Assembly: GCA_003217895.1 (NCBI GenBank)
Contig: QHMS01000205.1
Span: 1-36,474 of the forward strand
DNA length: 36,474 nucleotides
Reading direction: 5' to 3'
Source: Verrucomicrobiota bacterium
GTDB taxonomy: Bacteria > Verrucomicrobiota > Verrucomicrobiia > Chthoniobacterales > UBA10450
Part shown: one piece after another, positions 25,961 to 27,376 of the stretch
Numbering within the stretch: position 1 is the stretch's first letter
Layout of the letters: every line of letters starts with the position of its first letter
Translations under genes and position numbers: made by a program
The notes under the pieces: model-generated
What the model saw: only the letters and a program-made list of their open reading frames with translations
What the model was told of the DNA's origin: nothing
Database searches by the model: none

Positions 25961-26266
25961 CTAGTTCTCTTCCTGGCCCGCCTGATACAGCTTGGCAGCG
26001 CCATAAATCAAAATCGCTGGTTTTAACGCGAACACGAGCAGTCTAAAAAGACCGCCCAGAACTTTGCCGAGCGGGAGGCGATTCAGAATGTAGCCAGCCG
26101 CAAACGCGCACAGAAGAGATTCTGCTGGTTTTTTCTGCACATAACTTTCCGTTTCGGTGAGAACCGCCTCGATTTGGTCTTTCACCCATTGCGCTCCACG
26201 TTCCGGGAGTTCGGCCGCTACCTCGGCAGATGACTGTTTCATTTCGTTTAATAATTCGCATCGCAA
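25961..26266 (-). CDS. Small membrane-anchored protein, DUF883/YqjD-like
   Basis: Amphipathic N-terminus, then ESYVQKKPAESLLCAFAAGYILNRLPLGKVLGGLFRLLVFALKPAILIYGAAKLYQ. Start may be internal (MKQSS). Confidence 0.6.
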   Translation of the reverse strand: MRCELLNEMKQSSAEVAAELPERGAQWVKDQIEAVLTETESYVQKKPAESLLCAFAAGYILNRLPLGKVLGGLFRLLVFALKPAILIYGAAKLYQAGQEEN

Positions 26267-26307
26267 TCCTGTATTGCGCGCATGGGACTGTCAACGCAAA
26301 GCAAGTC

Positions 26308-26409
26308 GGAACATAGGCTTTCAGCCTGTGCGCCCATCGGTTTTGGAAACCGCTCGACCAACAAGGGGCAACATACCCGTTGGGCGCACAGAGGGGATAT
26401 CTATGTTCC
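26308..26409. repeat. Nested-inverted-repeat element (102 bp)
   Basis: Outer arms GGAACATAG/CTATGTTCC (26308-26316, 26401-26409); inner arms CTGTGCGCCCA/TGGGCGCACAG (26326-26336, 26381-26391); apical CGGTTT-TGG-AAACCG. Confidence 0.85.
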
Positions 26410-26425
26410 TTTAGCGCAGCGTCTG

Positions 26426-27376
26426 TCAACGCAGAGCGAGCCAAATCGAGCTTGCGCCCGCACCCGGCGGAAAATCAGGCAGTTGGGACGACCGATGAAA
26501 TATAGCGGCCCGGCGCGTTGCTTTTAGGCAATAGCGCGCCATCACTTCCAGTGCATGCTCGCGCACTACAGAGCAATTGGTCGAAAGCAAGACGTGGCTG
26601 TCTCGCTCTGCCAGTTCGAGAGCATCAATCAGCAACTTTTCGAAATCCTCTTCGACATGGAACGTTTTTGCTCCCGGTGAACGTGAAAAGGTTGGCGGAT
26701 CGAGAATGATTGCGTCGAATTTCTCGCCTCTCCGCGCTAGGCGCGGCAGCACCGCCCTCACATCATCCGCGATGAAGCGGTGGTCCATGGTTGGCAAATT
26801 GTTCAGCGCAAAATTCTGGCGTCCGCGCGTCAGATATTTCTTGGAAACGTCAATGTTAAGGGTAGTCGCCTCCCTGGATGCCGCACTGACAGAAAACGAG
26901 CAGGTGTACGCAAAGCAGTTGAGCAATCGTCTCGGTGCAATATGGTGCACGTAGCGGCGATTTTCTCTTTGGTCCAGGAAGAGGCCTGGGGAATAGCCCG
27001 TCCCGAAATCGATGCCGAATTTAAGATGTCGCTCGGTAGCGATTGTCTGCAAATTTTCGCCGGGGTGACCAAATATAACACGCGGCGGTTTCCGCTGTTC
27101 ACTTTTGCGAGGGACGAATCTTGCGAAAATATGTCGGAACTGAAAGCTGACAGAGCCGGCCCACGATTCCAGTTCTGTGAGAAGGCGCTGGCGGGTCAAC
27201 ACTCTTTTGAAAGAGATGAGGACGTCGCGTCCGAAGCGTTCCACCCAGCCATCCTCCATCGTACAGAGTCGGTGGGAGTCGGTTCCCTCTGCCTGAAAAT
27301 CTCGAAGTAATGCGGGATCAATCCACCCAAAATTCATTTTTCGTGTCGTCTCCAACCGCATACTTCGAATCGGCAT
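26426..27376 (-). CDS. Class I SAM-dependent methyltransferase, rRNA (cytosine-C5)/RlmI-like
   Basis: GIDFGTGYSPGLFLDQRENRRYVHHIAPRRLLNCFAYTCSFSVSAASREATTLNIDVSKKYLTRGRQNFALN...FDAIILDPPTFSRSPGAKTF. Start may be ATG at 27337. Confidence 0.88.
   Translation of the reverse strand: MPIRSMRLETTRKMNFGWIDPALLRDFQAEGTDSHRLCTMEDGWVERFGRDVLISFKRVLTRQRLLTELESWAGSVSFQFRHIFARFVPRKSEQRKPPRVIFGHPGENLQTIATERHLKFGIDFGTGYSPGLFLDQRENRRYVHHIAPRRLLNCFAYTCSFSVSAASREATTLNIDVSKKYLTRGRQNFALNNLPTMDHRFIADDVRAVLPRLARRGEKFDAIILDPPTFSRSPGAKTFHVEEDFEKLLIDALELAERDSHVLLSTNCSVVREHALEVMARYCLKATRRAAIFHRSSQLPDFPPGAGASSIWLALR

Follow-up and report, generated by a model that had tools for sequence, protein, structure and literature searches.

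The window, the whole 36,474-nucleotide stretch of DNA that was analysed, belongs to a 2.74-Mb draft genome in 347 contigs. On its minus strand lie a gene for a SAM-dependent methyltransferase (26426-27376; PF10672, 1.7e-24) and, downstream of it, a small gene (25961-26242) encoding 93 amino acids with no match in Pfam. Between them is a palindromic element with a 102-bp core (26308-26409) that begins with GGAACATAG and ends with CTATGTTCC; these are its outer arms (26308-26316 and 26401-26409, respectively), and nested inside them is a second pair of complementary arms, CTGTGCGCCCA (26326-26336) and TGGGCGCACAG (26381-26391). An initial annotation described this nested inverted repeat as bracketed by an 18-nt direct repeat, and the repeat is present as claimed: CTGTCAACGCAAAGCAAG (26288-26305) and CTGTCAACGCAGAGCGAG (26423-26440) are identical at 16 of 18 positions. 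That the second 18-mer is the 3' end of the methyltransferase gene is also borne out, since it specifies the last four codons and the stop (LALR*) of the minus-strand ORF. The element folds far more stably than shuffled sequences (z = -5.65 as RNA; -3.0 as DNA with its flanks), and nothing in the entire window matches Rfam above the gathering score. As has been proposed for REPs in general, a strong hairpin placed here, between genes that run in the same direction, could attenuate or stabilise the transcript.

The background of direct repeats of comparable quality at 30-250 bp spacing is about one per 35 kb (21 were counted in 731 kb), and there is no genome-wide excess of flanking direct repeats. 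The pair in the window is more than a chance occurrence, as it abuts the element and its flank score exceeds every value of the cross-paired null.

The relatives in a named collection are Candidatus Udaeobacter and other soil Verrucomicrobia; the methyltransferase gene was found in all 35 genomes of the genus. If the element had been inserted, relatives should hold empty sites, and they do: in about 40 related genomes the methyltransferase stop directly abuts a single spacer and the element is absent. Where the 3' end of the gene is readable, the next start usually lies 50-53 nt past the stop, the spacer between them is conserved, and the small gene follows; the window alone bears this element at the junction, set between two copies of the junction itself. 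(The exception to the single spacer, one other species, G016, has at the same place an unrelated short hairpin insert, ~70 bp in total including a diverged copy of the gene end.) When the window's flanks are aligned to three element-free relatives (L107, L108 and L130), they overlap by the identical 28 bp each time (GCGCATGGGACTGTCAACGCAAAGCGAG in L107). By this comparison the distal copy of the duplicated target is 28 bp long (26278-26305) and runs on into the native leader of the small downstream gene, while the gene-side copy (26414-26440; 27 bp with one 1-nt deletion) supplies the last four codons of the methyltransferase, its stop and the next bases. An 18-bp duplication is thus replaced by one of 28 bp, and the 13-nt gap that might have passed for filler is mostly target sequence, only TC (26306-26307) and TTTA (26410-26413) separating the target copies from the arms. 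Of the bases next to the core, the C at 26307 is that of the family consensus described below; the consensus G that should follow the core is a T (26410).

Because the site is empty in about 40 relatives and the same 28-bp overlap is obtained against three of them, the element is, on this comparative evidence, a true insertion with a 28-bp target duplication that left the C-terminus of the methyltransferase intact. Homology-guided insertion, the other possibility raised by the initial annotation, is not needed: the 28 bp are target sequence in the relatives and lie outside the element. They flank no other copy, which also disposes of the idea that the 18-mer belongs to the element itself wherever it occurs. 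Between the two 18-mers there are 2 differences in 18 positions (11%), which resembles the 10-11% divergence from G014 and G018 around the site. The insertion may accordingly date from about the time of the split from these nearest relatives, a rough estimate that rests on two changes.

The window element is one member of a dispersed, covarying, REP/BIME/REPIN-like family that occurs in Udaeobacter and in a related genus. Of the 35 Udaeobacter genomes, 19 contain copies by DNA search and 11 contain two-ended copies by an exact two-ended pattern. G316, a member of another genus of the same family, has 51 exact copies with a consensus longer by one base pair (CGGAACATAG...CTATGTTCCG; element ~105 bp). 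In an even draw of 335 genomes from across the class, the element occurs in the window's own genome and in G316 alone; the draw also contained three congeners of G316, all without copies. The copies are multiple, dispersed and mostly intergenic, ACATAG is invariant in them, and half copies (single units) also occur (L003, L027, L034, L036 and L044). Their ends are precise: in G316 the C before the element is present in 41 of 50 copies and the G after it in 38 of 50. Alignment of 20 copies yields six helices (an outer stem, two small hairpins, an inner stem and two inner hairpins) in which 93.8% of cells are paired, with 75 double-change cells compared with 22.5 in shuffles. Slid versions of the model lower the paired fraction to 31-45%; as the structure was drawn from the same alignment, this control is biased towards it, and the double changes carry more weight. 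In L032 and L098 the CTATGTTCC end appears to provide the downstream gene with its start codon; the left end overlaps the upstream stop codon. A literature search, partial in its coverage, came upon no description of this repeat family, nor of target duplications for REPs.

If the duplication were the family's signature, other copies should have flanking repeats of 15-20 bp, and mostly they do not. Flanking duplication as a general trait is not seen across 80 two-ended copies (30 from Udaeobacter, 50 from G316). Among the 30, the window copy alone is distinguished by a repeat that abuts the element; the flank score of L098 is also high, yet its repeat lies away from the element ends and inside coding sequence. 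For the 50 copies of G316, flank similarity is 6.88 against a null of 6.79, with one outlier, L326, in which 24 bp of the upstream gene's last codons are repeated with three synonymous differences. L326 might have been a second clean case, but its congeners hold other inserts at that place and a near-empty site in G133 shows no overlap; a target duplication there is only suggested by the repeat. Orthologous sites were located by both flanks in a relative for 27 other copies. The target is duplicated in three of these (four of 28 with the window): L331, with a 26-30 bp overlap made up of last codons of the upstream gene (7 bp when a third relative is the reference); L268, with 22-23 bp at a stop-to-start junction, against three relatives; and L258, with 13 bp of last codons, against two. 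The remaining 24 show no overlap of note or have lost spacer, up to tens of bases, although filled and orthologous sites diverge by ~5-35%, so that some apparent losses may reflect spacer drift after the insertion. When each site is compared with a single reference, overlaps of at least 13 bp are found at 4 of 19 sites (window included) as opposed to 1% in a null made by exchanging flank ends among sites. The 28-bp target duplication in the window is genuine and, within the family, rare though not unique. Insertion with a long target duplication, as initially proposed, accordingly describes the window copy but not the way in which the family inserts: most of the 80 copies and 24 of the 27 orthologous sites lack it, and where it does occur its length varies (13, 23 and 30 bp).

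Two further observations concern repeats of other kinds. In relatives (L177, L174, L187 and L339) the same intergenic positions are taken up by hairpins of another family (GTAGCC...GGCTAC), as if such junctions were shared hot spots. L243 (8301-8437; G006:C154) contains a perfect direct repeat of 23-24 bp, CGGGATCGAACCAACAGTGCGGTT, at 109-bp spacing and unrelated to the family.

Genes with the Y1_Tnp domain are found in 32 of the 35 genomes. The search for an associated RAYT, also suggested by the initial annotation, came up empty in the window's own genome, where none lies beside the family and none of six Y1 loci is flanked by its copies. In a single case, the carB gene of G316, a RAYT-type Y1 domain has a full family copy on either side. 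A Y1 transposase may make the element copies and is a candidate for the cognate enzyme. L196 (1196-2005; G009:C116) looked at first sight like an autonomous parent, since a family copy there is split into halves with a Y1 gene between them. This was rejected: the Y1 cassette between the ACATAG-element halves is bounded by inverted repeats of its own (~17 bp), is accompanied by a second hairpin family and looks nested, and at an apparently orthologous site (L090, G003) the short element is uninterrupted. RAYT-type Y1 domains also occur in-frame within housekeeping proteins, bounded by repeat-coded peptides, in L016 (the window's genome, C291), L215 (G010), L283 and L286 (G316) and L290 (G291). 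The hosts are CarB in L283 (by Pfam) and in L215 and L290 (by eye), a RecG-like protein in L016 and a MetH-like protein in L286; open frames of ~1350 amino acids with Y1_Tnp recur across the genus.

How, then, might the element have come to lie between two copies of a gene end? The explanation that we think probable, with modest confidence, is a repair-joined insertion of a REP-like element with exact ends and a variable outcome at the target. The element would have entered the junction of the methyltransferase and the next gene around or after the split from the nearest sampled relatives. A RAYT-type Y1 transposase would perhaps make the copy, which repair would then join into broken DNA, by end joining with fill-in of staggered ends or by template switching. 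At entry 28 bp of target were duplicated, as the empty sites show, and both genes survive, the gene-side copy giving the methyltransferase its last codons and stop and the distal copy keeping the leader of the downstream gene. Both genes are indeed kept in the arrangement as it stands; that it was selectively retained we infer. Repair capture is favoured over a transposase with a fixed duplication because the ends of the element are precise while the target fared differently from copy to copy across the family, with 13-30 bp duplicated in some, no duplication in others and tens of bases lost in yet others. Ku is encoded in all 35 genomes, often more than once, so the capacity for end joining exists, though Ku signifies no more than that capacity. 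Selection may favour duplication at tight junctions, where the upstream end and the downstream leader are both kept, although this is no requirement, since L024 and L032, whose spacers measure no more than about ten bases, show no duplication. Against repair joining stand the want of a genome-wide excess of flanking direct repeats and the fact that the coding parts of the window's target copies differ synonymously, a pattern also expected if gene ends had recombined.

Such recombination, by gene conversion or transfer from a relative, could have brought the element and left a second gene end behind. In its favour, the differences between copies in coding sequence, read by eye, are synonymous at 2 of 2 positions in the window, 3 of 3 in L326 and 4 of 5 in G016. 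In the window, however, the methyltransferase and the part downstream both show ~90% identity to one and the same set of relatives and nothing points to a foreign donor, and we regard this origin as improbable. Rather unlikely, if a more serious contender, is insertion of a single strand by a RAYT/Y1 enzyme without target duplication, the 28 bp being an unconnected local event where two genes closely adjoin. Transposition of the IS200/IS605 type makes no target duplication, and most copies of the family have none; the wide distribution of Y1_Tnp genes and the carB case of G316 also fit, as does the single-stranded nature of IS200/IS605 transposition (PMC8266576). Four of the 28 informative copies nevertheless have such a duplication next to the element, and this calls for a linked cause; the Y1 loci of the window's own genome are unflanked by family copies. 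A MITE of a DDE-type insertion sequence with a long, fixed target duplication would account for the terminal inverted repeats and the clean 28 bp of the window copy; it is contradicted by the null-like flanks in G316, by the one outstanding copy in 30 from Udaeobacter and by the differing lengths at orthologous sites (13, 23, 28 and 30), and has very little chance of being correct. The least credible account of all is an artefact in a metagenome-assembled genome. The assembly is fragmented, and another family copy (L039/L093) lies at the centre of a mirror-image stretch (L093 ~1500; G003:C177:6665-6761; ~196 nt per side) that represents an inversion or a misassembly, but substitutions and an indel distinguish the window's two target copies from each other, and other genomes offer similar cases.

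Repair joining may be extended, tentatively and with some doubt, to REP-type elements at large: these would be joined, with exact ends of their own, into variably processed breaks, and some survivors at tight junctions would carry a 13-30 bp duplication that ends the upstream gene and leads the downstream one. If so, gene-end duplications beside palindromic repeats are fossils of the insertion step. How REPs and REPINs enter new sites is an unresolved question (PMC8266576). Orthologous filled and empty sites yield insertion footprints, whose variability leads to a testable prediction of repair-dependent joining and bears on why such repeats gather at gene ends.

Among known systems, REP doublets, BIMEs and REPINs (PMC3116915, PMC3733652, PMC8266576) come closest: they too are short, dispersed and intergenic, with two inverted halves that fold together, and also occur as single halves, often adjoining gene 3' ends. 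The described REP superfamilies bear a GTAG or CGTC tetranucleotide beside the hairpin (PMC3733652); the window family has ATAG instead, comprises four small hairpins and two long stems in ~105 bp, has only a candidate RAYT and shows long target duplications at a minority of copies. The Y1 gene of L196, bounded by its ~17-bp inverted repeat, recalls the TIR-associated tyrosine transposases (TIRYT, PMC3733652), but that repeat is foreign to the window family and looks like a later insertion into the element. With MITEs of DDE insertion sequences the family shares terminal inverted repeats, the lack of coding capacity and, in the window copy, a target duplication; it differs in having no consistent duplication across copies. 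An integrative element with attL and attR at a gene 3' end would carry its core repeat in every copy, whereas the sequence duplicated in the window is the target as it exists in relatives.
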